A program made the translations under genes and the position numbers. A model generated the notes under the pieces. It was not told the origin of the DNA. It saw only the letters and a program-made list of their open reading frames with translations, and made no database searches. A stretch of 42,629 nucleotides of DNA from Pseudomonadota bacterium (GTDB lineage: Bacteria > Pseudomonadota > Gammaproteobacteria > Burkholderiales > Burkholderiaceae_C), in NCBI GenBank assembly GCA_030538605.1, contig JAUNTQ010000016.1:5952-48580 (forward strand), in the 5' to 3' direction. Positions 1-39,577 of this stretch are shown here, one piece after another; position 1 is the stretch's first letter, and the number at the start of each line of letters is the position of its first letter.

Positions 1-80
1 GGCGTCGACCCTTGCGGCGCGGGCACACATTTCGCTTACAGTGTTTTCCCTCTCAAACACCACAAGATGGAGTGAAAGCC

Positions 81-1676
81 ATGACCCAAAAGCGCGTCCT
101 CACCCTGGCTGCTGCCGCTGCCATTGCTGCCTGCATGGCCCTGCCCGCGCAGGCCAAGACCTTCCGCTGGACCAGCGCCAGCGACATCCCGACCATGGAC
201 ATCCACTCGCAGAACAACGCGCTGGGCAACGGCGTACAAGCGGCCATTTATGAATCGCTGGTGACCTACAACAGCAAGAGCTTCAAGGTAGAGCCGCTCT
301 TGGCCACCGCCTGGAAGCAGGTCAGCCCCACCGAGATGCAGTTCACCCTGCGTGAGGGCGTGAAGTTCAGCGACGGCAGCGCCATGACGGCCGAGGACGT
401 GAAGTTCTCCATCGAGCGCGCGATGGCCAAGACGAGCAACTTCGGCGTCTACACCCAGGGCATCGACAAGGTGCAGGTGGGCAGCCCCACCAGCGTCAGC
501 ATCTTCACCAAAACGCCCAACCCCGTGCTGCTGAACCAGCTCACCGAGCTGCGCATCATGAGCAAGGCATGGGCCGAGAAAAACAACTCGGTCGAGCCAA
601 AAGACATCAAAACCAAGGACGAAAGCTACGCCCACCGCAACGCCATGGGCAGCGGCCCCTTCATGGTCAAGGAATGGCAGCCCGACCAGCGCCTGGTGCT
701 GGTGGAAAACCCCCACTGGTGGGGCACCGCCGCCAAGGCCAAGACCGGCAACGTGACCGAGGTCATCTACACCCCCATCCGCTCCGAAGCCACGCGCATG
801 GCCGCGCTGCTGTCGGGCCAGGTCGATCTCGTGCTCGACCCCACGCCGCAAGACCTTGACCGCGTGCAGCGCAACAGCGCGCTGAAAGTGCTCAGCGGCC
901 CCGAAAACCGCACCATCTTCTTCGGCCTGGACCAGCACCGCGACGAGCTGCCCGGCAGCAACATCAAGGGCAAGAACCCGCTGAAAGACCAGCGCGTGCG
1001 CCAGGCGCTCTATCAGGCCATCGACATCGACGCGCTGCACAAAGTCGTCATGCGCGGCCTGAGCCAGAACACCGGCACCCTCGTGGCCCCGCAAGTCAAC
1101 GGCTGGACCAAGCGCGCCGACGAGCGCTACCCCTACGACGCCGCCGCCGCCATCAAGCTGCTGGGCGACGCAGGCTACAAAGACGGCTTTGAAGTCGACT
1201 TCGCCTGCCCCAACAACCGCTACATCGCCGACGAGCGCATCTGCCAGGCCGTGGCCGCCATGTGGGCCAAAGTGGGCGTGAAAGCCAAGCTGCGCACCCT
1301 GCCGCTGGTCACCTACTTCCCCATGATCCAGCGCCACGAAGCCAGCATCTACATGCTCGGCTGGGGCGTGCCCACGTTTGACGCGCTCTACAGCCTGCAA
1401 TCGCTCGTGCGCACCCCCGGCGAAGGCGGCGACGGCAACTACAACGTCGGCCGCTACAGCAACCCCGAAATGGACAAGCTGATCGACCGCATCAAGGTCG
1501 AAACCGACCAGAAAACGCGCAACGACCTCATCGAGCAAGCCCTCGTCCTGGAGCACAAGGACGTCAGCCACCTGCCCCTGCACAACCAGGTCATCCCCTG
1601 GGCGATGAAGAAAAACATCGACGTGGTGCACCGCGCCGACAACCGGCTTGACTGGCGCCTGATTCAGGTCAAGTAA
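81..1676 (+). CDS. ABC transporter substrate-binding protein, dipeptide/oligopeptide type (SBP_bac_5)
   Basis: This is a 531-residue periplasmic binding protein of the DppA/OppA class, which captures peptides or similar solutes for an ABC importer. Residues 1 to about 25 form a signal peptide: a Lys/Arg start, an Ala-rich hydrophobic core, and a predicted cut after AQA before KTFRW. The mature part shows the family pattern, with a YESLV segment near the start, the FSDGSAMTAEDVKFS stretch typical of the class, and a C-terminal segment ending in LPLHNQV. I chose the ATG at 81 because a GGAG box lies just before it and the signal peptide starts there; the frame stays open 23 codons further upstream. 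No permease or ATPase gene follows, so partners lie upstream of the window or elsewhere. The true ligand is not visible. Confidence 0.9.
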   Translation: MTQKRVLTLAAAAAIAACMALPAQAKTFRWTSASDIPTMDIHSQNNALGNGVQAAIYESLVTYNSKSFKVEPLLATAWKQVSPTEMQFTLREGVKFSDGSAMTAEDVKFSIERAMAKTSNFGVYTQGIDKVQVGSPTSVSIFTKTPNPVLLNQLTELRIMSKAWAEKNNSVEPKDIKTKDESYAHRNAMGSGPFMVKEWQPDQRLVLVENPHWWGTAAKAKTGNVTEVIYTPIRSEATRMAALLSGQVDLVLDPTPQDLDRVQRNSALKVLSGPENRTIFFGLDQHRDELPGSNIKGKNPLKDQRVRQALYQAIDIDALHKVVMRGLSQNTGTLVAPQVNGWTKRADERYPYDAAAAIKLLGDAGYKDGFEVDFACPNNRYIADERICQAVAAMWAKVGVKAKLRTLPLVTYFPMIQRHEASIYMLGWGVPTFDALYSLQSLVRTPGEGGDGNYNVGRYSNPEMDKLIDRIKVETDQKTRNDLIEQALVLEHKDVSHLPLHNQVIPWAMKKNIDVVHRADNRLDWRLIQVK

Positions 1677-1704
1677 CGCGCCGCAGCCTGCGGGCCGGCA
1701 CCTC

Positions 1705-1739
1705 GTAGGCTGGGTAGAGCGCAGCGAAACCCAGCCTAC
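1705..1739. repeat. Inverted repeat of the GTAGGCTGGGT family
   Basis: An 11-bp perfect inverted repeat (GTAGGCTGGGT at 1705-1715, ACCCAGCCTAC at 1729-1739) lies 28 nt behind the binding-protein gene and is followed by an A-rich run. The same arm sequence returns in a larger inverted repeat at 17304-17385. The type is widespread in proteobacterial intergenic DNA. It could fold as a 3'-end hairpin for the upstream gene. Confidence 0.75.
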
Positions 1740-1758
1740 AAAAAACCAAAACAATCGT

Positions 1759-1834
1759 AGCTGCTTGCGTACGTTTTAAAACAAATTCAGCATCATTTAC
1801 ACCTGAAATCGTTTTAAAACGTACGCAAGCAGCT
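1759..1834. repeat. 76-nt hairpin repeat, copy A
   Basis: This is a perfect 24-bp inverted repeat (arms 1759-1782 and 1811-1834, beginning AGCTGCTTGCGTACG) around a 28-nt A/T-rich centre. The centre itself carries ATTCAG/CTGAAAT, which would extend the fold. A T-run follows on the plus strand and an A-rich stretch precedes it, so it has the form of a two-way terminator. Four more copies of identical length lie at 12441, 17198, 28791 and 39502. It sits between the binding-protein gene and ruvA. Confidence 0.9.
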
Positions 1835-1861
1835 CATTTTTTCATAAAGAAACACCCTCCC

Positions 1862-2434
1862 GTGATCGGACGCCTCACCGGCTTGCTGGCCGAGAAAAAC
1901 CCGCCGCAAATCCTCATCGACTGCCACGGCGTCGGCTACGAGGTGTGGGTGCCCATGAGCACCTTCTACAACCTGCCCGCACTGGGTGCGCCCGCCACCC
2001 TGCTCACTCACATGGTCGTGCGCGAAGACGCCCACCTGCTCTACGGCTTCGGCACCGAGCCCGAACGCGCCGCCTTTCGCGAACTCGTCAAGATCAGCGG
2101 CATCGGCCCGCGCATGGCCCTGGCCGTGCTCTCCGGCATGGCCGTGCCCGAACTCACCCACGCCATCGGCACGCAAGACGCCGCGCGCCTTACCAAAGTG
2201 CCCGGCATCGGCAAGAAAACCGCCGAACGCCTGCTGCTCGAACTCAAAGGCAAGCTCGCCCCCGACCTGGGCGCGCGCCCCGCCCCCGCCAACGACACGC
2301 AAGCCGACATCCAGCAAGCCCTGCTCGCCCTCGGCTACAACGAAAAAGAAGCCGCCGCCGCCCTCAAGGCCCTGCCCGCCGATGTGGGCGTGAGCGAAGG
2401 CATCAAGCTCGCCCTCAAGGCGCTGGCGCGCTGA
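1862..2434 (+). CDS. ruvA: Holliday junction branch migration protein RuvA
   Basis: RuvA forms the tetramer that holds a Holliday junction open in a square-planar form while RuvB hexamers pump DNA through it, in recombinational repair. The 190-residue product starts MIGRLTG, has the N-terminal OB-fold with the DCHGVGYEV strand, and two helix-hairpin-helix motifs ([16 protein letters not shown] at about 75-90, [15 protein letters not shown] at about 110-125). A short C-terminal domain III (about residues 145-190) follows; this part contacts RuvB. The start is a GTG without a strong ribosome binding site. ruvB is not adjacent here: it lies 3.35 kb downstream on the same strand, behind two other genes and an IS remnant. 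Confidence 0.97.
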
Positions 2435-2489
2435 ACACGCGCGCAGCAGGGTGCGAGAATCGCCTTCGTTCCCACACCCGGCTCCCCCC

Positions 2490-3203
2490 ATGGTCACGCC
2501 ATTTACCCCGTTGAGCGAGGACGAACTCAACGAACTCGACCAGTTCCTGCTCCATGACGTCGACACCGAAGAAGTCATGATGCTGGACATCGTGGACGGC
2601 TTCCTGCACGCCATCGTGATCGGCCCCACCACCATCCCGCCCAGGCAGTGGCTGCCCAGGATCTGGGGCACCCAGGAAATGATGCCCCCGGCGGACGCCA
2701 TCCAACAGTCGGACCACATGCTGGGCCTGGTCATGCGCCACTACAACGGCATCATTGCCGGGCTTGAGGGTGAGCCGCGAACGATCCGCCCCTGCTGGTC
2801 AACGATGACCTACGCGAAAGACCAGCAGCCATATGACGATGCCGAGATGTGGGCCTACGGCTTTGTCGAAGGCATGCGGCTTTGCTGGGACGACTGGCAG
2901 CCCCTGCTCTCCACCCCGCAAGGGCACGCCTGGTTCAGGCCCATCGGCCTGCTCGGCCAAGACGACTTCTCGGAAGACCAGGACGCACTCGTCAAGACGC
3001 CCCCCATGCGGGCCGAGCTGGCCCTCCAGATCCCGCAAGCCGTCCTTGACATGCACGCCCATTGGCTGCCGCTCAGACTCGCCATCCATGAGCGCATGGT
3101 GGCCCAATCCATGCAACCCAAGGTCGGCCGCAACGATCCCTGCCCCTGCGGCAGCGGCAAGAAATTCAAGAAGTGCTGCGGCGCAGCGGCCGATCTGCAT
3201 TGA
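2490..3203 (+). CDS. UPF0149 (YecA-like) protein with C-terminal SEC-C zinc motif
   Basis: The product is a 237-residue cytoplasmic protein. The N-terminal part (about 8-150) fits the UPF0149/YecA family, with acidic helices followed by [15 protein letters not shown]. The last 25 residues hold the SEC-C motif [19 protein letters not shown] (about 212-231), a CxC...CC zinc site first known from the SecA C-terminus. Such proteins are uncharacterised; a link to ribosomes or SecA-like partners is known only for the motif. I chose the ATG at 2490 because family similarity begins there; an upstream in-frame start at 2451 would add 13 Pro-rich residues. A second member with the same C-terminal motif is at 39653-40540. 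It lies 55 nt behind ruvA on the same strand. Confidence 0.85.
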
Positions 3204-3232
3204 GGCATCACGCACGTCAGCGTCAAGCCGAC

Positions 3233-3605
3233 TCACTGCGTCGTCAGTCGCCAGGGCAGTAGCGCCTCGTAACCATCTGCCGTTTGTGCCAGCGGCAGCT
3301 TCTTGAACAGAAGCCACCAGATACCGGTACGGCTTCATGCCATTGGCCTTGGCCGTCTCGATCAGCGAGCACAGATTAGCGCTGGCCCGTGCGCCGTCCA
3401 CCGTGCCCGCAAACAGCCAGCTTCGCCTGCCGACGACGAAGGGCCGGATCGCGTTCTCCACGGGGTTGGCGTCCGGCGGCCAAGCCTCCTTGTTCAGAAA
3501 GCGTACGAGCTTGAACCACTGCCCGTGCAGATAGTGCCAAGCCTCGCTCAGCAGATGCGATGGCAGACACCTTGCGCCCGTGCTGCTTAAGTGCCGCAGC
3601 CCGCG
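3233..3605 (-). pseudogene. IS66-family transposase (TnpC) C-terminal remnant with two frameshifts
   Basis: Read on the minus strand, this stretch encodes only the tail of an IS66 transposase: AEAWHYLHGQW-like sequence, then ENAIRPFVVGRRSWLF, GARASANLCSLIETAKANG and PYRYL. After PYRYLVA the frame breaks. One base out of frame it continues as LFKKLPLAQTADGYEALLPWRL and stops at 3233-3235, the normal family end. A second break of the same kind lies near 3556, before LPSHLLSEAW. In each case one extra T before CTG explains the shift. The rest of TnpC, TnpA, TnpB and the terminal repeats were not found, so the 5' limit is approximate. The remnant cannot move by itself. Confidence 0.85.
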
Positions 3606-3753
3606 CGATTGACAATTGGTAACCACCGCACGCGGGCAGCGTCAGACATTCGTCACCAGCGCGCCCTACCATCTGCGGCGCGCTTGCGCACAGTGCAGGC
3701 AGGCACCCGCAGCACCGCCGCCCGCATCCCACCACCCTTGAATCAACCGCACC

Positions 3754-5736
3754 ATGCCCTTCCCCCCCACATCCCCCTCGCTTGAAGCCACCGCCCGCCG
3801 CATCGCCATGCGCAGCGCCTTGGCCACCGCCGGCCTGTCGCTGCTGCTGGCCGCCTGCGGCGGCGGCGAGTCCTCCGTCGCACTCGCCAGCCAGGCCGGC
3901 AACACCCCCGTCCTGCCCGCCCAGCCCGTGCGCGAACTCGCCGCACTTGAGAACCACTCCCCCGTGGACCTGAAGCTGGTGCAGATCAAGACCCTCTCGC
4001 AAAGCGCCGCCGATCGCGTGACCCCGCAGGTCATCACGCTGCCCGCACTCTCGGCAGAAAAGTCCGCGCTGACCGCGCCCGAACCCGGCCAGCCCCAGCG
4101 CATCGGCGTGGCCCGCGCGCTGGCCCAGGCAGCCCATGCCGACGACACCGCTCAGCTGCTGCACTGGCAGCCCGCGCCCGGCGGCGGCCAGCGCGCCGCC
4201 CTGGCCGTGCGCCTGGAAGGCGCCAGTGCCGTGCGCCTGGGCCTGCGCATCACCCAGCTGCCGCCCGGCACCCTGCTGAGCGTGTACGCCCCCGGCGCGC
4301 CCGAGGCCGAGCAGGTGCATGCCGCCGAAGTGCTGCGCACCATCCAGAACAACCTCAACGCCGGCACCACCGGCGACGACGCCTATACCTACTGGCTGCC
4401 CACCGTCTCCGGCCCCGAGGCCGTGCTGCAGATCGAGCTGCCCGCCGGCATGCGCGCCGAGTGGCTCAAGCTTGCGCTGCCCGTGGTCTCGCACTTCGTG
4501 GTCGACCCCGCCACCGACGACATTCCGACCAAGGCCGCTGCGGCGTGCAACATCGACGTGAACTGCGCCAACGAAGGCAGCGGTCAGCGCACGGCCGTCG
4601 CCCGCATGGTGTTTTCTGACAGCCAGGGCAGCTACAACTGCAGCGGCGCGCTGATGAACAACACGCGCAGGGACGGCACGCCCTACTTCCTCACGGCCAA
4701 CCACTGCCTGAGCACCCAGGCCGTGGCCTCCTCGCTGGAGACCTTCTGGAACTACCGCTCCTCCACCTGCAATGGCAGCAGCCTGTCCAACGACTTCCGT
4801 CGCGTGGGCGGCGGTGCCCGGCTGCTGTGGACCCACGCGGCCACCGACGCCACGCTGCTGCAGATCAACGGCGCACTGCCAGACAACCGCACCTACCTGG
4901 GCTGGAACGCCAGCGCCGCTTCGGGCACCGGCTCGGTGTTCGGCATCCACCACCCGGCCGGCGACTGGCAGAAGTTCAGCGCGGGCCAGTTGCATGGCTT
5001 TGCCAGCTGCCAAAACACTGGCGGCAACGGCGTTTCATGCGCCGACACCAACGCCAGCACAGGCGGCTATCTGGTCGTCGCATGGACGCGCGGCACGACC
5101 GAAGGCGGCAGCAGCGGCAGCCCCTTGTTCTCAAGCAACAGCCAGGTCATCGGCCAGCTTTATGCGGGCGGCGGCGATTGCAGCTCATCCATCCGTGCGG
5201 GAGCCTATGGCCGGCTGGACTGGTCCTTTGACGCGGGCCTGGCCCAATGGCTCAGCCCCAGCGCCGCCACGCCCCCTCCCGCACCCGGCACCCGCGCGCC
5301 CATCTACCGCTTCTACAACCGGGTCACCGGCGCGCACTTCTACACCATCAACCCGCTGGAGCGCGACTTCGTCATCGCCGCCATCCCCGACTACACCTAC
5401 GAAGACACCGCTTACTCCGCCTACGTCGGTGAAGTCAGCAACGCCTCGCCCGTCTACCGCTTCTACAACCGGGTCACCGGCGTGCACTTCTACACCATCA
5501 ACCCGCGCGAGCGCGACTACGTGAACGCCGCCCTGCCCGACTTCGACTACGAAGGCCCCGCCTGGAGCGCCCGCACCAGTGCAGGCGACGGCACCTCGCC
5601 CGTCTACCGCTTCTACAGCAGCGTGCGGCGCGGGCACTTCTACACCATCAACCCGCGCGAGCGCGATTTCATCCTCTCCGCCCTGCCCGACTTCACCGAC
5701 GAAGGCGTGGCCTACTACGCCTGGCCAGCGCAGTAA
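3754..5736 (+). CDS. Secreted lysyl-endopeptidase-like serine protease lipoprotein with three DUF5648-type repeats
   Basis: This 660-residue protein resembles the S1-family lysyl endopeptidases (Achromobacter protease I type). The N-terminus carries a lipoprotein signal, LSLLLAAC at about residues 28-35, so it is probably lipid-anchored. A propeptide-like region runs to about 264. The catalytic part starts near ACNIDVNC, with His317 in LTANHC, Asp365 in ATDATLL and Ser454 in GGSSGSP, plus paired cysteines. After a Pro-rich linker (about 505-515) come three repeats of about 50 residues with the pattern [23 protein letters not shown] (starts near 513, 567 and 615), matching the DUF5648 type, perhaps for surface or ligand binding. 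The start is uncertain: ATG 3808 would give a shorter, more typical signal, and neither site has a clear ribosome binding site. Substrate specificity is inferred only. Confidence 0.88.
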
Positions 5737-5754
5737 AGTCGAGGCTTTTTCCGC

Positions 5755-5775
5755 CCGCCGGGCCTCACCCGGCGG
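5755..5775. repeat. GC-rich hairpin between protease gene and ruvB
   Basis: An 8-bp inverted repeat (CCGCCGGG at 5755-5762, CCCGGCGG at 5768-5775) with a 5-nt loop lies in the 49-nt gap before ruvB. No T-run follows, so a standard terminator is unlikely. Its position 10 nt before the ruvB start could affect translation initiation. Confidence 0.45.
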
Positions 5776-5785
5776 CGCTCTTGCC

Positions 5786-6856
5786 TTGACCATCCACACC
5801 GACGACTTCGCCCTGCCCGCCGCAGGCGACGCCCCGCGCGTCGTCTCCGGCGCTGCCGCCTCCCCGCGCGAAGAGGCGCAAGAGCGCGCGCTGCGCCCCA
5901 AGCTGCTGGATGAATACGTGGGCCAGGCCAAGGCACGCGGGCAGCTTGAAATCTTCATCGGCGCGGCGCGCAAGCGCGGCGAGGCGCTTGACCACGTGCT
6001 GCTGTTCGGCCCCCCGGGGCTGGGCAAGACCACGCTCAGCCACATCATCGCCATGGAGCTGGGCGTGAACCTGCGCCAGACCAGCGGCCCGGTGCTGGAA
6101 AAGCCCAAAGATCTGGCCGCGCTGCTGACCAACCTGGAAAAGAACGACGTTCTTTTCATCGACGAGATCCACCGCCTCAGCCCCGTGGTGGAAGAGATCC
6201 TCTACCCCGCGCTGGAGGACTACCAGATCGACATCATGATTGGCGAAGGCCCGGCGGCGCGCAGCATCAAGCTCGACCTGCAGCCCTTCACCCTGGTGGG
6301 CGCGACCACGCGCGCGGGCATGCTCACCAACCCACTGCGCGACCGCTTCGGCATCGTGGCGCGGCTGGAGTTCTACACGCCCGAAGAGCTGGCGCGCATC
6401 GTCACCCGCTCGGCGGGCCTGCTGAACGTGCCCACCGACGCGCCGGGCGCGATGGAAATCGCCCGCCGCAGCCGGGGCACCCCGCGCATCGCCAACCGCC
6501 TGCTGCGCCGCGTGCGCGACTTTGCCGACGTCAAGGGCGATGGCCACATCAGCCAAAAGATCGCGCACGACGCCCTGGCCATGCTGGATGTCGACCCCGA
6601 AGGCTTCGACGTGATGGACCGCAAGCTGCTCGAAGCCGTGATCCATCGCTTCGACGGCGGCCCGGTGGGGCTGGACAACATTGCCGCCAGCATTGGCGAA
6701 GAGCCCGGCACCATCGAAGACGTGATCGAGCCTTACCTGATTCAGCAAGGCTTTTTGCAGCGCACCCCGCGCGGGCGCGTGGCCACGCTGGCCGCCTACC
6801 GGCATTTGGGCGTGACGGCGCCGCAGGGTGGTGGAGGGTTGTTTGGCGGCGGATAA
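5786..6856 (+). CDS. ruvB: Holliday junction branch migration ATPase RuvB
   Basis: RuvB is the AAA+ motor that, with RuvA, drives branch migration. The 356-residue product has Walker [10 protein letters not shown] (about 75-83), Walker B FIDEIHR, sensor GATTRAG, the arginine-finger region and the winged-helix end ([12 protein letters not shown]). The start is probably the TTG at 5786, because TIHTDDF is the usual beginning in related bacteria; no Shine-Dalgarno sequence is seen. It follows the protease gene by 49 nt. The last codons overlap the next gene, which suggests coupling. Length and motifs are complete, so the gene is intact despite being separated from ruvA. Confidence 0.96.
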
Positions 6857-8324
6857 GGCCACGCCGCGCTGGGCCTATCCCTTGCGTGCGCTCGTCGCGA
6901 CGGTGGTCATCGTGCCGCTGGCGGTGCAAGCGCTGCTGTTGGCCTGGGTGGCCGCGACGCTGCTGCCGTCGGCTCAATGGCCGCAGCACACCGCCGAAGC
7001 GGTGCTGGCGCTGCCCACGGTCGCGCTCGCGGCCTGGCTGGGCAAGCGCTTCGCGCGACGCGGTGATCTGCCTGCTTCGCCCTGGGCGCGCTATGGGCCG
7101 CTGCTGGCCTACCCCCTGCTCATCTGGCTGGCCTGGGTGGTGAGCATGCATGCGTCGGGCGGCGACTTCACGCGCCCGCCCAATGCGCTGTTCTACGCGT
7201 TGATGCCGTTTCTGCTGCTGTCGCTGGTCGCCGGCTTCGAGGGCCATCTGTGGTGGCTGCTTCTGGTGCCGCTGGGGGCGTACGCGGCCTTCGTGGGCGG
7301 CTTCTGGCATGCCAGCCGCAAGCAGCCCACGCAACCGGCCGCCTCGCGTGTCTGGGCTTCGGCGGTTTTCGGTGCGCTGGCGCTGTCGCTGGGCGGCGTC
7401 ACGGCCTGGCAGGCGCTGGAGCGTGCGCGGGCGCTGGCGCCCTCGGACGGCCAGGCGCTGCGCGAAGAGGTGCAGATGCACCGCTATCGGCCTTTTGCCG
7501 CTGACAACCTGCTCAAGCCCGTGCAGCCCAGGCCGGGCTTGCAGTTCGGCCTGGCCGATGCGCCAGCGCTCGATGGCGCCACCGCCGCCTACCCGGTGTA
7601 CGCAGCAGCGGCGCAGGCGATGTATTCCGAAGAGGCGGCGAGAAGGCGCGTCGAAGTCAGCCGAACGCCCGAGGCTTACCAGCGGCTGATCGACGGCCAG
7701 GCCGACCTGATCTTCGTCGCGCAGGCCTCGCCCGCGCAGCAGCAGCGCGCGGCAGATGCCGGTGTGGCCCTGCGCTTCACGCCCGTCGCCAAAGAGGCCT
7801 TCGTGTTCCTGGTCAGCCCGGACAACCCGGTGCACAGCCTGTCACTGGCGCAGATCCGTGCCATTTACAGCGGCCAGATCACGCGTTGGAGCGCCGTGGG
7901 CGGCCCCGATGCACGCATCGTGGCCTACCAGCGCCCGGCCGATTCCGGCAGCCAGACCGTGATGCTGGCCCAGGTGATGCAAGGCGCGCCCATGGCCCAG
8001 CCGCTGGACGAGGAACTGGCCGTTGGCATGGGCGGGCTGGTGCGCAAGGTGGCGGCGTACCGCAACGCGGCGCCCAGCCTGGGCTATTCGTTCCGCTACT
8101 ACGCCACGCAGATGAAAGCCGACGACCCGGTGCGCTTGCTGGCCGTGGACGGCGTGGCGCCGACGCCGGAGAACATCCGCACTGGCCGCTACCCGCTCAC
8201 CGTGGATGTGTTCATGGTCACGCGCCAGAACCCGCCGCCCAACGTGCAGCGGCTGATGGACTGGTTTCTGGGCGACGCCGGGCAAAAGCTGGTGGCCGAC
8301 GTAGGCTACGTGCCCTTGCGCTGA
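6843..8324 (+). CDS. Membrane-anchored PstS-like phosphate-binding domain protein
   Basis: This protein of about 493 residues joins an N-terminal membrane part to a soluble PstS-like domain. The first about 190 residues hold five or six hydrophobic segments (for example the stretches around [19 protein letters not shown] and [14 protein letters not shown]). From about residue 200 it looks like a periplasmic phosphate-binding protein: [45 protein letters not shown] and a C-terminal [11 protein letters not shown]. It has no signal peptide, so the domain is displayed from the membrane. A TTG at 6843 is preceded by a GGAGGG box; an alternative GTG at 6828 adds five residues. Both overlap the end of ruvB. 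No pst permease genes are present; a sensing role is possible but unproven. Confidence 0.75.
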
Positions 8325-8337
8325 ACCCGGTGGCGGC

Positions 8338-9012
8338 TCAGCCCGCGCCCCCAAACACATCCACCACCGCCTGCATCTGCGCGGGCGTGACCACGTCGGC
8401 GCGGCGCGTGGCGGGGTCGACGCAGGTGGTGCGCAGCACCTCGGGCGGCAGGCTGGCCAGGCCGCGAAAGCCCCATTCACGCAGCACGGCCCAGCGTTCG
8501 GGCGCGGCGGCGGCGCGCTCGCGCAGGGCGCGGGCTTGGTTGGGCGTGTAGGCCCAGACGTCTTCGACCTCGCCCGTTTCGCGCGCGGCCACGCGCAGAC
8601 CGGCCATCGGCGCTCTGACCATCAAAATACGCGCTTGCGCAAGCAGATCGGGCGCAAATCGCTTCAAATACAGAAGCAACAATGCGCCGATGTGGATGCC
8701 GTCCGCGTCTGGGTCGAGCAGCAGCAGCACGCGTTCGAAGCGCGGCGCGGTTTCTGGCACCGCCACGGGCGATGGCCAGCCCATGGCCGCCGCCAGCTGC
8801 CCATACAAGGGGTAAGCCGCCACACGTTCGACGCTGGCGCGCCAGGCGTTCAGCGGCTTGCCCTGCAAGGCCAGCACGGCCTGCGTGCGGGCGTTGCGCA
8901 CGGCGGCCACCGCGCCGGCGGCCGATTCGCCTTCGACCAGAAACAGCTCGCAGCCGGCGCCGTGCCGCTGGCTGTCGATGAGCGCCATGGCGGCCTGCGC
9001 GCGGCGCGTCAT
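8338..9012 (-). CDS. Stand-alone TOPRIM-domain protein related to GyrB/ParE
   Basis: The 224-residue product covers only the TOPRIM region of type IIA topoisomerase B subunits. CELFLVEGESAAGAVAAVRNAR matches the GyrB catalytic Glu motif, QAVLALQGKPLNA matches its RGK-LN segment, and LLLLDPDADGIHIGALLL matches the DxDxDG metal site. The GHKL ATPase and transducer domains are absent. The key acidic residues (E of LVEGES, and D, D of DPDADG) are kept, so metal binding is plausible, but strand passage alone is not. ATG 9012 gives MTRRAQAAM, aligned with the helix before the TOPRIM fold; a GTG at 9093 would add 27 residues. It runs toward the PstS-like gene, tail to tail with a 13-nt gap. Its function is unknown. 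Confidence 0.8.
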   Translation of the reverse strand: MTRRAQAAMALIDSQRHGAGCELFLVEGESAAGAVAAVRNARTQAVLALQGKPLNAWRASVERVAAYPLYGQLAAAMGWPSPVAVPETAPRFERVLLLLDPDADGIHIGALLLLYLKRFAPDLLAQARILMVRAPMAGLRVAARETGEVEDVWAYTPNQARALRERAAAAPERWAVLREWGFRGLASLPPEVLRTTCVDPATRRADVVTPAQMQAVVDVFGGAG

Positions 9013-9198
9013 GCCCGCGCCCTGCGCGCTTCGGTAGCGTTTGGCAACACCGCCATACGTTTGCTCGCAGCAAGCGTGTGGGTGCAGCCACACCGCTGTG
9101 TCTTTTGACGCATTGCGCGCGGCGAATAGGCACGCACAAGGATTAGCTGATTAGTATTCAAATCCTGTTTCACTTCTTTGAACCATGGGAGCTTCATC

Positions 9199-9888
9199 AT
9201 GAACAAGTATCTGGCCGAATTGATCGGCACCTTCTGGCTGGTGCTGGGCGGCTGCGGCAGCGCGGTGCTGGCGGCGGCGTTTCCTGAACTGGGCATCGGC
9301 TTTGCCGGCGTGGCGCTGGCCTTCGGCCTGACGGTGCTGACGATGGCCTTTGCCATTGGCCACATCTCGGGCTGCCACCTGAACCCGGCGGTGTCGTTCG
9401 GCCTGTGGGCGGGCGGGCGCTTTGAGGGCAGGCAACTGGCCCCCTACATCGTCGCGCAGGTCATCGGCGCGGTGCTGGCGGCGGCGGCGCTTTACTTCAT
9501 CGCCAGCGGCCAGCCGGGCTGGCAGGCGGGCGGCTTTGCCAGCAACGGCTTTGGCGAGCTGTCGCCGGGCAAGTATTCGATGGCTGCCGTGCTGGTGTGC
9601 GAGGTGCTGCTGACGGCAGTGTTTCTCTTCGTCATCATGGGCGCAACCGACAAGCGCGCACCGGCTGGCTTTGCGCCCATTGCCATCGGCCTGTGCCTGA
9701 CGCTGATTCACCTGGTGAGCATTCCGGTGTCCAACACTTCGGTGAACCCGGCGCGCTCCACCGGCGTGGCGCTGTTTGCGCAGACGGCAGCGCTTGGCCA
9801 GCTGTGGCTGTTTTGGGTGGCACCCATTGTCGGCGGCATCCTCGGTGCCGTGGTTTACAAGGCGGTGGCGAGCGAGCCGCGCCACTGA
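9199..9888 (+). CDS. aqpZ: Aquaporin Z
   Basis: This 229-residue inner-membrane water channel has six hydrophobic helices and both Asn-Pro-Ala half-helices: HLNPAVS near residue 63 and SVNPARS near 184. The Arg after the second NPA belongs to the selectivity filter. The N-terminus [15 protein letters not shown] is typical of AqpZ rather than GlpF, and length is normal. A GGGAG box lies 8 nt before ATG 9199. The gene is monocistronic in appearance, followed by hairpins and a terminator before the next gene. Confidence 0.95.
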
Positions 9889-9945
9889 TCGACCTGATGG
9901 GCTGCTTGCCCTGCTTGCCCGGCCCGCATGCGGGCAAGCTCTTGC

Positions 9946-9969
9946 AAAGCGCCGCGAGGCGCTTTTTTT
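9946..9969 (+). terminator. Rho-independent terminator behind aqpZ
   Basis: The stem AAAGCGCC/GGCGCTTT (9946-9965) with a GCGA loop is followed by a T-run to 9969. Another inverted repeat, GCTTGCCCG/CGGGCAAGC (9913-9939), lies just upstream. Together they close the aqpZ transcript before the cation exporter gene. Confidence 0.85.
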
Positions 9970-10015
9970 GTGCACGCGGGCGCGCCGCACGGGCACTGCA
10001 CGGACAATGCGCGCC

Positions 10016-10948
10016 ATGTCCCAAGCCCCCTCACCATCTGCCGTGGCCGCCTGGATGACCCCGCGTCGATTGATGGTGGTGTCGGTCGCGGTGGCCGTGC
10101 TCACCATCACGCTGAAGACGCTGGCCTGGTGGATCACCGGCTCGGTGGGTCTGCTCTCAGACGCGATGGAGTCGTTCGTCAATCTGGCGGCCGCGATGTT
10201 CGGGCTGCTGATGGTGACGGTGGCCGCGCGCCCCGCCGACAAGGAGCACCCCTTCGGGCACGGCAAGGCGGAGTATTTTTCGTCCGGCTTCGAGGGCGTG
10301 CTCATCATCGGCGCGGCGGCGGCCATTATCTGGGCGGCGCTGCCGCGCTTCTGGCACCCGCAGCCGCTGGAGCAAATGGGCTGGGGCCTGGCGTTGGCGG
10401 TGGCCAGCTCGGCGCTCAATGGCGCGCTGGCCTGGGCCATGCTGCGCGCAGCCCGCGCGCACCGCTCCATCGCGCTGGAGGCCAACGCCAAGCACCTGCT
10501 GACCGATGTGTGGACATCTGCCGGCGTGGTGCTGGGCCTGCTGCTGGTGCCACTGACGGGCTGGCTGTGGCTGGATCCGCTGGTGGCCGTGGCCGTGGCG
10601 CTGAACATCGTGCGCGAGGGCTGGCGCCTGCTGTGGCGCTCCAGCCAGGGGCTGATGGACACGGCCGTGGAGCCTGAAACCCTGGCCGCCATCGAGGCTG
10701 CGCTCGCGCGTTGCGCCTCGCCGCTGGTGCGCTTTGACCACGTGATGACGCGCAAGGCCGGGCAAAGCCGCTTCGTCGATCTGCACATGCACCTGCCCGC
10801 TGGCTGGACGCTGCGCCAGGCCGCCGACATGCGCGCGCACGTGGAGCAGGCGCTGGACAGCGCGGTGCCGGGGTTGCACGCCAGCATCCAGATGCTGCCC
10901 GACGGGGTGAAGCCGCAAACCGGGCTGCACGCGCCGGATGACGCATGA
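10016..10948 (+). CDS. Cation diffusion facilitator (CDF) family efflux transporter
   Basis: This inner-membrane transporter of about 310 residues is expected to export divalent metal ions against protons. It shows the CDF layout: six hydrophobic segments within about residues 15-205, the LLSDAMESFVN motif in helix 2, HPFGHGKAEY in the first loop, HLLTDVWTS in helix 5, and a C-terminal cytoplasmic domain ending in a HMHLPAGWTL-like strand. The first metal motif has Asp but Ser/Glu where FieF has a second Asp, so the metal is uncertain. Two starts three codons apart are possible (10007 and 10016); I chose the second by family similarity. The stop codon lies within a dispersed ATGAC repeat. Confidence 0.85.
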   Translation: MSQAPSPSAVAAWMTPRRLMVVSVAVAVLTITLKTLAWWITGSVGLLSDAMESFVNLAAAMFGLLMVTVAARPADKEHPFGHGKAEYFSSGFEGVLIIGAAAAIIWAALPRFWHPQPLEQMGWGLALAVASSALNGALAWAMLRAARAHRSIALEANAKHLLTDVWTSAGVVLGLLLVPLTGWLWLDPLVAVAVALNIVREGWRLLWRSSQGLMDTAVEPETLAAIEAALARCASPLVRFDHVMTRKAGQSRFVDLHMHLPAGWTLRQAADMRAHVEQALDSAVPGLHASIQMLPDGVKPQTGLHAPDDA

Positions 10949-10978
10949 CCGCGTTCTGGCGAACGCATGACAAATGAC
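10945..10978. repeat. ATGAC/TGGC hairpin repeat, copy 1
   Basis: The layout is ATGACC, stem GCGTTC, loop TGGC, stem GAACGC, then ATGACAAATGAC. Other copies with different but still paired stems lie at 13476, 41831 and 41905. This copy overlaps the stop codon of the cation exporter gene. Confidence 0.8.
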
Positions 10979-11028
10979 GGAAGGCGTCAGCCTTCACACA
11001 GCCCCAGCGCAGCCCTGTCCCTCAAAAG

Positions 11029-11128
11029 GTCGCGGAGCAGGCCATCCCAGGCCACCCGAGCCGGGGTCTGCCCGGCGACCGGTGGCGTCCCCCTGGGGGG
11101 ATGACGCGCGCAGCGCGGCTCAGGGGGA
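11029..11128. repeat. Dispersed CGCGGAGCAGGCCA repeat with CCCCCTG/CAGGGGG hairpin
   Basis: This intergenic stretch shares the CGCGGAGCAGGCCA...CCAGG core with 15243-15358. It contains a palindrome around 11089-11102 and an inverted repeat CCCCCTG/CAGGGGG whose outer arm ends at about 11127. That lies 4 nt behind the minus-strand gene, where it could act as its 3'-end hairpin. Confidence 0.65.
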
Positions 11129-11131
11129 ATG

Positions 11132-11692
11132 TCAGTACATCGACTGCGGCCTGGTGCGCGGATACAGCGCGGCGCATTCGGCCGATGCGTCCGACTTGCC
11201 TTTGCAGTGCTGCCAGCCGCAGGCATCACGGCGGAAGGGGTTGCCGCCCGCTTCGGTCAGGCAGCGCCCGAGCGGGGTGGCGCGGTTGGGCACGGTGGGC
11301 ACCAGCACGTTGCCGCTGCTGGCCGGGCAGTCGCCCTGCCCCCAGCGGCCATCGCAGTGCTGGCGCATGCAGCGGTCGCGCGCGGCCATGTTCATGCCGG
11401 CGTGGTCCATGCAGCTCTTGAGGCTGGCATGGGGGTTGGCCTGCGGGTTGGCGCTGGAGCGGAAGGGGCGCTCGTGCGGGGCGGGCTGGGGCAGCGCATC
11501 GGCAGGCGCGGCGCGCGGCTGGCCCGCCTGCGCGGCGCGGTGCTGGCGCACGGCTTCGATGGCCTGCGGCGAGTTGGACTGCGCCTGCGCGAGCGCGGGC
11601 AACAGCCAAGCCATCAGCGCAAGCGCGAGCGCCAGCCACAGCGCCTGGGTATTCAAAGCGAGGCTTGAGAGCCGTGAAGTGCGGGTGTGCAT
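11132..11692 (-). CDS. Exported cysteine-rich protein of unknown function
   Basis: The product has 186 residues. A long hydrophobic segment (LWLALALALMAWLLPALAQAQ, about 19-39) ends in a signal-peptidase-like ALAQAQ, so it is probably exported to the periplasm. The C-terminal half has two related Cys blocks: SCMDHAGMNMAARDRCMRQHC...DCP and RCLTEAGGNPFRRDACGWQHC...ECAALYP, each with spaced cysteines and a CxxxxC pattern that could form disulfides. I recognise no named family. ATG 11692 has an AAAGG box; an upstream GTG at 11725 would add 11 residues. It is downstream of ybeY on the same strand, about 100 nt away. Confidence 0.7.
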   Translation of the reverse strand: MHTRTSRLSSLALNTQALWLALALALMAWLLPALAQAQSNSPQAIEAVRQHRAAQAGQPRAAPADALPQPAPHERPFRSSANPQANPHASLKSCMDHAGMNMAARDRCMRQHCDGRWGQGDCPASSGNVLVPTVPNRATPLGRCLTEAGGNPFRRDACGWQHCKGKSDASAECAALYPRTRPQSMY

Positions 11693-11794
11693 GCGAACGC
11701 CTTTGCAACGGTGGGTGGCGTTCACCTTACCGCCGAATGCCCGCCGGGATCCTGCGCGCCGGCAAGGCAGATGTAACCGTTGGTCGGCGCGGGG

Positions 11795-12259
11795 CTAGAC
11801 GTAGGGGTTGGGCACGCCCAGGGCGGCGAGGATGCGCGCTTCTTCGGCCTCCATCGCTTCGGCTTCTGCATCGCCGTGTTCGTGGTCCCAGCCTTGCGCG
11901 TGCAGCGCGCCGTGCACGAGCAAATGGGCGTAGTGCGCGGCCAGCGGCTTGCGCTGCTCGCTCGCCTCGCGCGCGAGCACGGGGGCGCAAAGCACCAGGT
12001 CGGCCATCACCACCGGCGCGCCGCTGTAGTCGAAGGTGAGCACGTTGGTGGCGTAGTCCTTGCCGCGAAATTCGCGGTTCAGCCGCTGGCCCTCATCGGT
12101 GCCGACCACGCGCACGGCGAGTTCGGCGGCCTGCACATCTGCGCCCAGCGCGTTGCGCAGCCAGCGGGCCACGTGGTGGCGCGGCAAGGCGGCGCGGTGG
12201 GCGGCCACGTCGTCAAAGCGGGCGAACTGCAAGCTGAGTTGAAGCGGGGGCAAGGGCAT
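11795..12259 (-). CDS. ybeY: Endoribonuclease YbeY (rRNA maturation)
   Basis: YbeY is a zinc metalloprotein that takes part in 16S rRNA 3'-end processing and 70S ribosome quality control. The 154-residue product has the family hallmark [16 protein letters not shown] near residues 115-130, supplying the three zinc-binding histidines of HxxxHxxxxxH, and the [18 protein letters not shown] strand before it. The start at 12259 gives the normal length; an upstream ATG at 12325 would add 22 non-conserved residues. The common neighbours phoH and corC are not beside it. A large inverted repeat lies directly upstream. Confidence 0.95.
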
Positions 12260-12329
12260 GGGTGGAGCGGATGGCGAAGGCGAAACGACCACCTTGCTGC
12301 GGCGGCTGTTGCGGGTGGCATTCACATTT

Positions 12330-12419
12330 CACCGCAGAGGGGCAGAGAACGCAGCGTTTCGCAGAGGAAATACTTGGGCTTCCTCTGCGAAACGCTGCGT
12401 TCTCTGTGCCTCTGCGGTG
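12330..12419. repeat. Large inverted repeat of the CACCGCAGAGG family
   Basis: Two 40-nt arms (12330-12369 and 12380-12419) match with about two mismatches around a 10-nt loop. The sequence is of the CACCGCAGAGG...GCAGAGAACGCAG type seen scattered in many bacterial genomes. It fills most of the gap between ybeY and the dehydrogenase gene, beside hairpin repeat copy B. Confidence 0.85.
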
Positions 12420-12440
12420 AGGGTATTGAATCAAAACAAT

Positions 12441-12516
12441 AGCTGCTTACGCACGTTTTAAAAAGATTTCACATACAAAATCATCTTAAATTGCTTTAAA
12501 ACGTGCGCAAGCAGCT
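12441..12516. repeat. 76-nt hairpin repeat, copy B
   Basis: Arms 12441-12464 and 12493-12516. The outer 16 nt pair except for one mismatch, and the arms read CGCACG/CGTGCG where copy A has CGTACG, a paired change. A T-run follows. It starts 17 nt behind the dehydrogenase stop codon (minus strand), where TTGTTTTG follows the hairpin. Confidence 0.9.
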
Positions 12517-12533
12517 TCTCTTTTTTATATACC

Positions 12534-13451
12534 TTACTTCAACCGCTTGATGAGGCTGGAGGTATCCCAGCGCGCGCCGCCCATCTGCTGCACGTCGGCA
12601 TAGAACTGATCGACCAGCGCAGTGACGGGCAGGCGTGCGCCGTTGCGCTTGGCCTCATCCAGCACCAGGCCCAGGTCCTTGCGCATCCAGTCGACGGCGA
12701 AGCCGAAGTCGAACTGGTCTTGCACCATGGTCTTGCCACGGTTGTCCATCTGCCAGCTTTGCGCCGCGCCCTTGCCGATCACATCCAGCACCTGCGGCAT
12801 GTCGAGCCCCGCGCGCTGGCCGAAGGCGATGGCTTCGGACAGGCCCTGCACCAGCCCGGCGATGCAGATCTGGTTGACCATCTTGGTCAGCTGCCCGGCG
12901 CCGCTCGGCCCCATGAGCGTGAAGGCGCGCGAGAAGGCCATGGCCACGGGCCGCACGCGCTCGAAATCGACCGGATCGCCGCCGCACATCACCGTCAGCT
13001 GGCCGTTCTGCGCGCCGGCCTGCCCGCCCGACACCGGCGCGTCCATGAAGGAAAAGCCCCGCGCACGCGCCACCGCATACAACTCGCGCGCCACGTTGGC
13101 CGAGGCCGTGGTGTGATCGACGAACACCGCCTCGGCCGGCATGCCGGCGAAGGCGCCGCTGTCGCCCAGCGTGACTTGCCGCAGGTCGTCGTCGTTGCCC
13201 ACGCAGCAGAACACGATGTCGGCGTCGGCGGCGGCTTCGCGCGGCGTGGGGGCGCGCTTCACGCGCTCGGTCGATGCCAGCTCCCGCACGAAGGCTTCGG
13301 CCTTCGGGGCGCTGCGGTTGTACACGGTGACCGTGTGTCCCGCCAGCGCCAGGTGCGCGGCCATGGGGTAGCCCATCACGCCCAGGCCGAGAAAGGCGAC
13401 CTGGCGGGGGTGGGCGGGTTCGTAGGTTTTGGCTTGGGTGGAGGTGTTCAT
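12534..13451 (-). CDS. NAD(P)-dependent beta-hydroxyacid dehydrogenase (3-hydroxyisobutyrate dehydrogenase family)
   Basis: The 305-residue cytoplasmic enzyme oxidises a short 3-hydroxyacid such as 3-hydroxyisobutyrate, tartronate semialdehyde (reverse) or a related compound. The Rossmann motif FLGLGVMGYPMA (about 20-31) binds the nucleotide, DAPVSGGQAGAQNGQL is the substrate-site signature, and GQLTKMVNQ carries the catalytic Lys. Length and domain order are normal. The neighbours do not reveal its pathway. No clear ribosome binding site precedes ATG 13451, but an upstream start is not supported. Confidence 0.9.
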   Translation of the reverse strand: MNTSTQAKTYEPAHPRQVAFLGLGVMGYPMAAHLALAGHTVTVYNRSAPKAEAFVRELASTERVKRAPTPREAAADADIVFCCVGNDDDLRQVTLGDSGAFAGMPAEAVFVDHTTASANVARELYAVARARGFSFMDAPVSGGQAGAQNGQLTVMCGGDPVDFERVRPVAMAFSRAFTLMGPSGAGQLTKMVNQICIAGLVQGLSEAIAFGQRAGLDMPQVLDVIGKGAAQSWQMDNRGKTMVQDQFDFGFAVDWMRKDLGLVLDEAKRNGARLPVTALVDQFYADVQQMGGARWDTSSLIKRLK

Positions 13452-13475
13452 GCGGGCATTCTAGGAAAGCGGGGC

Positions 13476-13516
13476 ATGACGAATGACTGCGCCCTGGCGG
13501 GCGCATGACGAATGAC
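13476..13516. repeat. ATGAC/TGGC hairpin repeat, copy 2
   Basis: The layout is ATGACGAATGAC, then TGCGCCC-TGGC-GGGCGC, then ATGACGAATGAC. The stem GCGCCC/GGGCGC differs from copy 1 but still pairs fully. It lies in the 94-nt gap between the dehydrogenase start and the next minus-strand gene; GGTCATTCGTC at that gene's stop codon (13544-13554) is a further partial match. Confidence 0.8.
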
Positions 13517-13545
13517 CTGCGGCCCCGGCACGTCCGACGCGGTGG

Positions 13546-13995
13546 TCATTCGTCCTTGACGACGTCAAACCAGCGCCGCCAACCCCATCCGCGCGAGACA
13601 CCTGCCACGCGCGGCCAGACGGGCATGCGCCAGACGGGCCGCGCGTGCAGGCGCAGCGTCCATGGCGCATCGGCCAGAAAGCGGAACTGCACGGCACCGG
13701 GCGGCAGCAGGCGCAGGCCGCTGAACATGTCCGTCGCATACGGCACGCCGATGCGTGCGCTGTCCAGCCGCTGGCCGTGCGCGCCCAGCAGGTGAATGGA
13801 CAGGCTTTCTTCAAACGGCACGTCGTCGGTGAGAAACAGCAGCCAGCCGGCGGGGCACTGCACGGCGGCTTCGAGCACGCAGCCAGGCACGGGGCCGCCC
13901 AGCGGGGCATCGCCCGCCCACACCATGCAAAGCGGCGGCTGATGTGCGTGCTGCGGTGCCAGCGGCTGCACGCGGATGTGCGGCGCGAGCTGCAC
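13546..13995 (-). CDS. Hypothetical protein downstream of pilU
   Basis: The product has 149 residues, no signal peptide and no membrane segment. The sequence has ordinary, balanced composition (for example LLFLTDDVPFEESLSIHLLGAHGQRL) and ends in WFDVVKDE, unlike the Arg/Ser/Cys-rich reading of other frames, so I take it as real. It begins with GTG at 13995, 40 nt behind the pilU stop on the same strand, which suggests co-transcription with pilU. I do not recognise a family. A twitching-motility accessory role would be guesswork. Confidence 0.6.
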   Translation of the reverse strand: MQLAPHIRVQPLAPQHAHQPPLCMVWAGDAPLGGPVPGCVLEAAVQCPAGWLLFLTDDVPFEESLSIHLLGAHGQRLDSARIGVPYATDMFSGLRLLPPGAVQFRFLADAPWTLRLHARPVWRMPVWPRVAGVSRGWGWRRWFDVVKDE

Positions 13996-14035
13996 GGCAC
14001 CCCGGCTTCAGCGCATGCGGGTGAGGCGGGGGGGA

Positions 14036-15172
14036 TCAGACGATTTGCAGATGCTCGGTGCCTGCGGCCAGGTCGAGCGACTTGGCGCGCTTGCTGGTGA
14101 GCTTGATCTGCAGGCGCAAATCGTTGGCCGAGTCGGCGTTGCGCAGCGCGTCTTCGTAGCTGATGAGGTTGGCCTCGAAGGCGTCGAACAGGGCCTGATC
14201 GAACGTCTGCATGCCCAGCTCGCGGCTTTTCTTCATGATCTCCTTGATCTCGCCGACTTCGCCTTTGAAGATCAAATCGGAAATCAGCGGGGAGTTCAGC
14301 AGGATCTCGACCACCGCCGTGCGGCCCTTGCCGTCCTGCTTGGCGATCAGGCGCTGCGAGATGAGCGAGCGCAGGTTAAGCGACAAGTCCATCAAGAGTT
14401 GCTGGCGGCGCTCTTCGGGGAAGAAGTTGATGATGCGGTCAAGCGCCTGGTTGGCCGAGTTGGCGTGCAGCGTGGCCAGGCACAGGTGGCCGGTTTCGGC
14501 AAAGGCCACCGCATGCTCCATCGTCTCGCGGTCGCGGATCTCGCCCATCAGGATCACGTCAGGGGCCTGGCGCAGGGTGTTTTTCAGCGCGGCTTCCCAG
14601 TCTTCGGTGTCCAGGCCCACTTCGCGCTGGGTGACGACGCAGTTCTTGTGCGGGTGCACGAATTCGACCGGGTCTTCAATGGTGATGATGTGGCCCTGGC
14701 TGTTGACGTTGCGCCAGTCGACCATGGCCGCCAGCGTGGTCGACTTGCCCGAGCCGGTGGCGCCCACAAGGATGGTCAGCCCGCGCTTGCTCATGGCCAC
14801 GTCTTTCAGCACCTGCGGCATGCCCAGCTTGTCGATGGTGGGCAGCTCTTGCGGAATCACCCGCATCACCATGCCCACGTGGCCCTGCTGCACGAAGGCG
14901 TTGCAGCGAAAGCGGCCGATGCCGGCGGGGCTGATGGCGAAGTTGCATTCCTTGGTGCGCTCGAACTCCGCCGCCTGCTTGTCGTTCATCACGCTGCGCA
15001 CCAGCGCCAGCGTGTGCGCGCTGGTGAGGTTCTGCGACGAGACCTTGGTCACCTTGCCATCGACCTTGATGGCGGGCGGAAAGTCGGCGGTGATGAACAA
15101 GTCGCTGCCCTTGCGCGTGAGCATGAGCTTGAGCAGGTCGTTGATGAATTTGCTGGCCTGATCGCGTTCCAT
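14036..15172 (-). CDS. pilU: PilT-like retraction ATPase PilU
   Basis: PilU is a hexameric cytoplasmic ATPase that helps PilT retract type IVa pili during twitching motility. The 378-residue product has Walker A VGATGSGKSTT (about 130-140), the Asp box ITIEDPVEF, Walker B ILMGEIRD and His box GHLCLATLHANS. It is longer at the C-terminus than PilT, as is usual for PilU, and has a divergent version of the PilT AIRNLIRE end motif. It lies downstream of pilT with a 188-nt gap that holds a dispersed repeat. Confidence 0.95.
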   Translation of the reverse strand: MERDQASKFINDLLKLMLTRKGSDLFITADFPPAIKVDGKVTKVSSQNLTSAHTLALVRSVMNDKQAAEFERTKECNFAISPAGIGRFRCNAFVQQGHVGMVMRVIPQELPTIDKLGMPQVLKDVAMSKRGLTILVGATGSGKSTTLAAMVDWRNVNSQGHIITIEDPVEFVHPHKNCVVTQREVGLDTEDWEAALKNTLRQAPDVILMGEIRDRETMEHAVAFAETGHLCLATLHANSANQALDRIINFFPEERRQQLLMDLSLNLRSLISQRLIAKQDGKGRTAVVEILLNSPLISDLIFKGEVGEIKEIMKKSRELGMQTFDQALFDAFEANLISYEDALRNADSANDLRLQIKLTSKRAKSLDLAAGTEHLQIV

Positions 15173-15242
15173 GTGTCTGTTCCTTCATTGACGCCTGGTC
15201 GGCGCGCTTTCAATTCGTTCGGGGAGTGCACTTGCTCGAATG

Positions 15243-15358
15243 GCCGCGGAGCAGGCCAAGCCAGGGTGCCCGCGCAAGGGCTTGGCCCGCCCGCTGGGCA
15301 CGCCCCCGGACGGGGGGTGGCGAAACAATGCGAAGCATGTGGAGCCTGGGGGCGAGCC
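15243..15358. repeat. Dispersed CGCGGAGCAGGCCA repeat between pilT and pilU
   Basis: The repeat shares the CGCGGAGCAGGCCA...CCAGG core with 11029-11128 and continues with GGGCTTGGCCCGCC, CCCCCGGACGGGGGG and a CCTGGGGG end. It fills nearly all of the pilT-pilU gap and could fold into a strong structure there, lowering pilU expression relative to pilT. Similar GGGCTTGGCC sequence is near 26265. Confidence 0.65.
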
Positions 15359-15360
15359 TT

Positions 15361-16404: not shown

Positions 16405-16443
16405 AGGAAAACCTTGGTTTCAGTTTGATACGCTGCGGCGATT

Positions 16444-17148: not shown

Positions 17149-17197
17149 GTTGCTGAACTTCCGGACGCGGAGGACGCAAAAGAATAAAGAAAAAGTG

Positions 17198-17273
17198 AGC
17201 TGCTTGCGCACGTTTTTAAAAAAATTCAGCACGTTTTATATTTGAAATTGTTTTAAAACGTACGCAAGCAGCT
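17198..17273. repeat. 76-nt hairpin repeat, copy C
   Basis: Arms 17198-17221 and 17250-17273, with a 28-nt centre containing ATTCA/TGAAAT as in copy A. The left arm has CGCACG and the right CGTACG, giving one mismatch. An A-rich stretch precedes and a CATCTTTTA stretch follows. It lies between two convergent genes. Confidence 0.9.
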
Positions 17274-17303
17274 CATCTTTTATTCAATCAAACGTCTTTC
17301 TTT

Positions 17304-17385: not shown

Positions 17386-17427
17386 GCCCTTGAGAGCACG
17401 CCCGTCTGCACCGTCATTCCCGCCCCC

Positions 17428-17503: not shown

Positions 17504-17582
17504 AATTTTTCAAGGTTTTCTTTCGCGTCCTTCGCGAACCCTTCGCGTCCTTCGCGTCCTTCGCGTCCGGAAGTTCGGCTGT

Positions 17583-28790: not shown

Positions 28791-28866
28791 AGCTGCTTGC
28801 GTATGTTATAAAACAATTTTGAATGTATTTATATTGTATTTTGTTTTATACCGTACGCAAGCAGCT
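28791..28866. repeat. 76-nt hairpin repeat, copy D
   Basis: Arms 28791-28814 and 28843-28866, with two imperfect pairs (one is G-U) and a very A/T-rich 28-nt centre. Unlike the others it lies in a divergent gap, about 55 nt upstream of the metX promoter and 120 nt from the thioesterase start, so here it cannot serve as a terminator of either gene. Confidence 0.9.
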
Positions 28867-39501: not shown

Positions 39502-39577
39502 AGCTTCTTGCGTATGATTTAAAGCATTTTCAATTTATTTTATATATGAAACCGCTTTATAACATGCGCAAGCAGCT
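39502..39577. repeat. 76-nt hairpin repeat, copy E
   Basis: Arms 39502-39525 and 39554-39577; the left arm has one unpaired change (AGCTT for AGCTG) and the most divergence in the inner arm. It starts 18 nt behind the amidase stop, is preceded by ACAAAAATAG and followed by CTATTTTTG, so it looks like the amidase terminator. Confidence 0.88.

Follow-up and report, generated by a model that had tools for sequence, protein, structure and literature searches.

The palindrome that occurs five times in the window (the whole stretch of 42,629 nt that was analysed) belongs to a Comamonadaceae family whose members, with roughly an even chance, act as two-way terminators or insulators that are read whole at the DNA level; both the termination and the reader are what we infer from the sequences. 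The length of the element stays near constant although much of its sequence drifts; this suggests that the entire element is read by something as a single unit. We found no description of this palindrome family in searches of an open-access library, where the occurrences of the arm 11-mers were judged unrelated to the element.

Anatomy of the element

Five hairpins of 76 nt each lie in the window, with the positions and the length that the initial annotation had given them:

Copy A, 1759..1834: 76 nt with perfect 24-bp arms, 82 nt past the stop of the gene ending at 1676
A-rich outer tract of copy A, 1747..1758
T-rich outer tract of copy A, 1835..1846
Copy B, 12441..12516: 76 nt, 17 nt past the stop of the minus-strand gene 12534-13451
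Copy C, 17198..17273: 76 nt, in a convergent gap, 49 nt past the gene ending at 17148
Copy D, 28791..28866: 76 nt, the sole window copy in a divergent gap
Copy E, 39502..39577: 76 nt, 18 nt past the stop of the gene ending at 39483

Both strands of all five copies fold, with energies of -25 to -47 kcal/mol. The 24-nt arms described earlier are perfect in copy A but contain mismatches in copies B-E, and the left arm of copy E carries an AGCTTC variant. The centre does have the described length of 28 nt, but is not featureless, since a second conserved pair of boxes, TTTCAG/CTGAAA, lies inside it. Four of the five copies, rather than three, lie behind a stop codon (at 17-82 nt, by our own gene caller), and copy D lies between divergent genes. 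From the starts of their proteins, we take the gene ending at 1676, upstream of copy A, to be substrate-binding-like, the gene downstream of copy A to be ruvA-like, and the gene ending at 17148, beside copy C, to be yggS-like. Other repeats share this region: a long inverted repeat (17310-17385) directly follows copy C, a similar string lies ahead of copy A, and a further inverted repeat at 17425-17508, TCATTCCCGC...GCGGGAATGA, is dispersed in other Ottowia genomes too.

The layout of the element is an outer box AGCTGCTTGCGC, a 14-nt spacer, the inner box TTTCAG, a variable centre and then the mirror image of all this, with A/T tracts outside; the 76-nt core plus the tracts make up an element of ~100 bp. 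When both halves are read together, positions 1-11 are AGCTGCTTGCG, position 12 is C (C or T in the genome from which the window comes, hereafter the window genome or G000), positions 13-26 vary, positions 27-31 are mostly TTTCA, position 32 is mostly G outside the window genome, and positions 33-44 are variable, the very centre (38-39) being AA or TT and rarely self-complementary. Outside both ends, positions 5-8 are T on 82-86% of sides in the window genome and on 60-81% in the named set of copies from other genomes. At least one side carries a run of four or more T within 20 nt in 73 of 74 copies of the window genome and in 36 of 45 copies of the named set; the tract begins ~5 nt from the core in G000 and 2-3 nt from it in many of the Comamonas copies compared. 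The element shows the combination by which intrinsic terminators are recognized: past a stop codon comes a hairpin, and then a T tract. Copies A-C escaped a simple scan for terminators over window positions 1-20000, probably owing to its limits on the stem, the loop and the start of the T run.

Copy number and fixed length

In the window genome, a 3.77-Mb assembly of 234 contigs whose genus is probably Ottowia, exact 10-nt ends separated by a gap of 40-70 were found in 133 copies, versus 0 for a reversed control pattern. The initial annotation had called about one copy per 8 kb dense, and an arm-only scan of 426,357 bases (the window and 20 stretches of four large contigs, drawn from a hit list) agrees, giving ~1 per 9 kb; by extrapolation, the genome would hold ~400 copies. 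The arms themselves are hardly seen outside the element: the exact 10-mer GCTGCTTGCG occurs 9 times in the window, 8 of them in element arms. In Neisseria and Haemophilus, paired DNA-uptake signals serve as terminators, and the inverted, conserved 11-12-mer at gene ends would suit such a double role here; uptake signals should, however, be common singly, and the length lock would be left unexplained, making this reading barely credible.

A variant pattern, in which 75 or 76 nt was allowed, was run on a genome collection of 84,980 species and matched 41 stretches, every match being 76 nt. The carriers were Ottowia beijingensis, two Acidovorax, Paenacidovorax caeni, Comamonas (testosteroni, kerstersii, denitrificans, suwonensis and MAGs) and two MAGs without a genus name. 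With strict patterns, 5 of 41 genomes and 6 of 399 genomes gave matches, and viral contigs gave 0 matches to one strict pattern. A covariance model with flanks, R2, had matches in at least 16 of 120 family genomes (at least 15 of 119 genera), the window genome included, in a survey with stricter filters and at most 34 candidates scored per genome, so that absences from it are weak. Three Comamonas genomes had at least 146, 145 and 135 R2 matches (both strands counted, with a ceiling of 150 on the candidates scored). Many gene ends in these bacteria bear the element.

The length of these copies is narrowly fixed. Among the 426,357 bases, arms with at most one mismatch each and at most 200 nt apart formed 45 pairs, 40 of them of 76 nt, 4 of 75 and 1 of 35. 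When a second mismatch was tolerated, there were 43 pairs of 76 nt and 4 of 75, versus 1 to 3 for any other length. The distance from outer to inner box could be measured in 300 of 416 arms (the other 116 were unclear) and was 14 nt in 298 of these 300, the G000 and Comamonas sets having been collected at 75-77 nt only, and O. beijingensis (17 copies) and the Ottowia genome G013 measured with 60-94 nt allowed. The 32 distinct copies of O. beijingensis comprise 28 of 76 nt and 4 of 75. In G013, by comparison, all 20 long copies read are of 75 nt (L231, L235, L243, L248-L264), and the distance from TTTCA to TGAAA is 13 instead of 14 in the 11 copies with both inner boxes recognisable. There is also a short form: nine copies read are 35-nt hairpins that share the outer arms of the long form (L233, L236, L237, L241, L245, L247, L265-L267), which would correspond to the long form minus the 41 nt between two CAAG repeats. 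Among the matches listed, genome G016 has short forms only.

Inheritance and pairing of the arms

A selected structure, one of the two origins that the initial annotation had suggested, is supported by copies at the same sites in three Comamonas genomes, where length, outer arms and inner box are retained. We compared 27 loci of C. testosteroni ATCC 11996, 26 of JL40 and 26 of C. suwonensis, among which flanks matched in 16 ATCC-JL40, 10 ATCC-suwonensis and 10 JL40-suwonensis pairs. Length differed in 0 of these 36 orthologous pairs (the finder allowed 75-77 nt), which lean towards recognisable elements: the Comamonas copies are nearly all top R2 matches among those listed, and L175 and L212, with no element by the finder, were left out of the pair counts. 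Between ATCC 11996 and C. suwonensis, divergence was 9% in the outer 12 positions, 15% in the TTTCA box, 46% in the spacers, 55% in the loop and 26% in the 12-nt flanks; between the two C. testosteroni the corresponding values were 6, 5, 14, 7 and 11.5%. Orthologous copies of the two species thus differ at about half of the free positions. In the ATCC 11996-suwonensis comparison, 27 double changes had a Watson-Crick pair as their starting point, and 17 of these led again to such a pair.

Since both members of each pair had been chosen by R2, partner-less sites were queried by their flanks alone, with 60-94 nt allowed. Nine of the 17 partner-less copies were queried and 8 sites were found (with the flanks far apart at L148 and a single flank matched at L161), 6 of which hold an element of exactly 76 nt. 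The remaining two, judged by eye, hold one an ordinary hairpin with a T tract and the other a GC-rich repeat; arm scores ranged from 25 to 34 where the element was present and stood at 22 at both sites that lack it.

These comparisons bear on an alternative, namely that the copies are plain bidirectional intrinsic terminators under ordinary selection on stem and T tract, whose fixed length is inherited and meaningless. Placement at gene ends and the T tracts agree with this, as does the one orthologous site at which the element was exchanged for an ordinary-looking terminator; paired changes would have a precedent too, compensatory evolution in terminators being described in PMC5381666. From the indel-to-substitution ratio of the 60-nt flanks (0.198), however, ~82 indels were expected in the 20 between-species pairs (non-independent, as they have suwonensis copies in common), and every pair agreed in length. 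Together with the unpaired spacers and the strand symmetry described below, this makes plain terminators an unlikely explanation.

The paired changes noted earlier between the arms exceed chance: in an ungapped alignment of 56 copies there were 190 double-changed cells, versus 103 +/- 7 after shuffling (0 of 500), and the covariation score of these copies was 0.216, versus 0.119 shuffled and at most 0.099 slid. The strongest covarying pairs, the top five in the window genome and the top eight in the named set, all cross from arm to arm, with positions summing to 77. A cloverleaf with a hairpin in each arm was rejected, the within-arm pairs reaching no higher than z 2.6. The initial annotation had reserved the name of a loose family of AT-rich terminators for copies that vary freely in length and show no excess of paired changes, and the copies do neither. 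Rfam gave nothing at gathering score in the window and, at the elements in 6 loci, sub-gathering matches to microRNA-precursor families only.

The consensus fold retains the outer 13 and inner 5 pairs only, with a weak covariation term (-0.34). Pairing between spacer positions 14-25 exceeds chance in G000, in the two C. testosteroni genomes and in C. suwonensis (p 0.0005 each), with no such excess in O. beijingensis (match 0.43 versus 0.47 expected) or G013 (0.42 versus 0.43). As the 14-nt distance is held in these last two genomes as well, spacing is kept even where the spacer is unpaired, which also speaks against plain terminators. What surprises in this result is that length is locked where the bases do not pair; the lock predicts a reader. 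The covariation itself could be false if template switching within the quasi-palindrome rewrote one arm from its partner while structure was under no selection, and in four of the six genomes the arms within a copy are indeed more alike than those of different copies. The spacers of O. beijingensis and G013, however, lack this excess, the signal is patchy along the arm, and neither length lock nor placement would be explained; we regard template switching as highly improbable.

Placement, strand symmetry and mobility

Relative to genes, which were called with our own simple codon-based model, the elements follow stop codons and seldom occupy divergent gaps. The 46 copies classified in the window genome were 23 tandem, 16 convergent, 5 divergent and 2 at edges, versus 130 tandem, 42 convergent and 44 divergent gaps of at least 76 nt (divergent 44/216); the 45 copies of the named set were 27 tandem, 16 convergent, 1 divergent and 1 at an edge, versus 85, 27 and 35 gaps of at least 90 nt (divergent 35/147). 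Pooling gave 198 classified copies, 101 tandem, 90 convergent and 7 divergent (copy D among the 7), in a set that includes orthologous Comamonas copies, the gap baselines covering the window genome and the named set. Of the 101 tandem copies, 77 lie no more than 60 nt from the upstream stop, and of the 90 convergent ones 85 lie no more than 60 nt from the nearer stop; over 203 copies, the median distance past the stop was 29 nt (tandem) and 15 nt (convergent, nearer stop).

On the sense strand of 97 tandem copies, G.T pairs were not above A.C pairs (153 versus 171), and T in 12 nt was not richer downstream (6.00) than upstream (6.13). Control inverted repeats from 87 tandem gaps of the window genome and the named set did show a bias (T 3.21 downstream versus 2.25 upstream, p 0.008; not significant in the window genome alone, 2.92 versus 2.29, p 0.23), and their G.U test (12 versus 8) had counts too small to use. 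A plain terminator should show such strand bias, as the pooled control hairpins do, and its absence counts against a reading by termination only. The element is thus symmetric as DNA, and a plain one-way terminator would not need this symmetry. The earlier description of a terminator from both sides holds insofar as placement and A/T tracts fit it, but the tracts are symmetric even where transcription is one-way.

A two-way terminator or insulator that is read as one unit could work as follows. On each strand, the outer GC-rich arms would fold into a hairpin with a T tract after it, and the element would stop or insulate transcription arriving from either side at gene 3' ends. A putative factor would recognize the outer box, 14 nt, the inner box, the short centre and their mirror image as a unit, probably at the level of DNA or of a single-stranded-DNA hairpin. 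Were the element recognized whole in this way, its locked length, its symmetry at one-way sites and its different dialects from genome to genome would be accounted for. More speculatively, and rather doubtfully, the factor might gauge the distance between outer and inner box on both halves and mark hundreds of gene ends in the window genome as two-way boundaries, and the dialects (a 75-nt standard in one Ottowia species among them) would then resemble the outcome of co-evolution between element and reader. Should termination be confirmed, the family would annotate a sizeable share of 3' ends in these bacteria.

Alternatively, the palindrome might be REPIN-like non-autonomous mobile DNA, copied by a transposase on a single-stranded hairpin, with the length locked by this machinery and the 3' placement reflecting tolerated insertions; we hold this to be a possibility worth weighing, though a doubtful one. 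The architecture is that of REPINs (conserved ends, fixed spacing, a length-constrained variable spacer, compensatory changes), and for the REPIN spacer PMC3116915 describes length and hairpin capacity as seemingly critical and compensatory changes as common. The element is dense in the window genome and differs in dialect between genomes (AT-rich spacers in G000, 75 nt in G013), and no element was found at the sites corresponding to copies B and C in 8 of 8 other Ottowia genomes, nor in any of the 20 loci fetched from them; dialects and missing copies together hint at past spread. Intergenic sequence has turned over among Ottowia, so that the absence of copies B and C does not prove insertion. 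Direct repeats of 2 nt at the ends are in small excess (28 of 203, where 300 shuffles gave 19.7 on average and never more than 27), so that a target-site duplication of 2 nt is conceivable.

The mobilised REP/MITE-like unit put forward in the initial annotation was nevertheless not borne out. Direct repeats of 3-10 nt at the ends show no excess in 203 copies, pairs of copies with >90% identity are few (18 of 2701 in the window genome), and the long vertical retention with length kept argues against REPIN-like mobility. The REP-associated tyrosine transposase (RAYT) that was to support the proposal showed no link to the element in the Ottowia loci read: of the 8 Ottowia tested, 7 carry PF01797 genes, three of these 7 (G010, G019, G023) lack a strict-pattern copy, and none of the 15 PF01797 loci read is bracketed by a long element. 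G016 has no PF01797 match. Short-form or single-arm matches lie near the PF01797 loci L123, L124, L126 and L130, and at L125 one long copy lies ~175 nt (by eye) from a RAYT gene that has its own repeats. The latter, TGATCTGACCCCAATT at 1011-1035 and 1897-2041 of L125 (G000 contig C211), flank this RAYT-type gene and constitute a separate REP-like system.

We compare the element here with known systems. With bidirectional intrinsic terminators it shares the position behind stop codons, a GC-rich outer stem, a T tract on both strands and rarity in divergent gaps; it differs in its sequence-conserved boxes, a spacing held where unpaired, symmetric tracts at one-way sites and the length of 76 nt. 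BRE (Betaproteobacterial repeat element) resembles it as a mostly intergenic repeat common to Bordetella and Comamonadaceae, and is given in PMC3110155 as having a mean of 69% GC, 75-91 bp and partly tandem arrays; BRE is GC-rich and the centre of our element AT-rich, and we rejected their identity on this basis. GC-rich dispersed repeats do occur in the window as separate sequences (11020-11130 and 15236-15358, with many matches in other Ottowia genomes), and are called BRE-like by look only. Of the features of MITEs, the element has terminal inverted repeats and lacks target-site duplications of 3-10 nt. With REPs and REPINs, the latter as described in PMC3116915, it shares a palindromic unit or doublet, conserved ends, fixed spacing, compensatory changes and many extragenic copies. 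It departs from REPINs in generally lacking the GTAG tag (of 406 ends, 42 have GT ahead of AG), in showing no RAYT bracketing in the loci read and in having no end repeats of 3 nt or more, and it is set apart from them by its position at the 3' ends of genes, by the A/T tracts that flank it on either side and by its retention across two Comamonas species.
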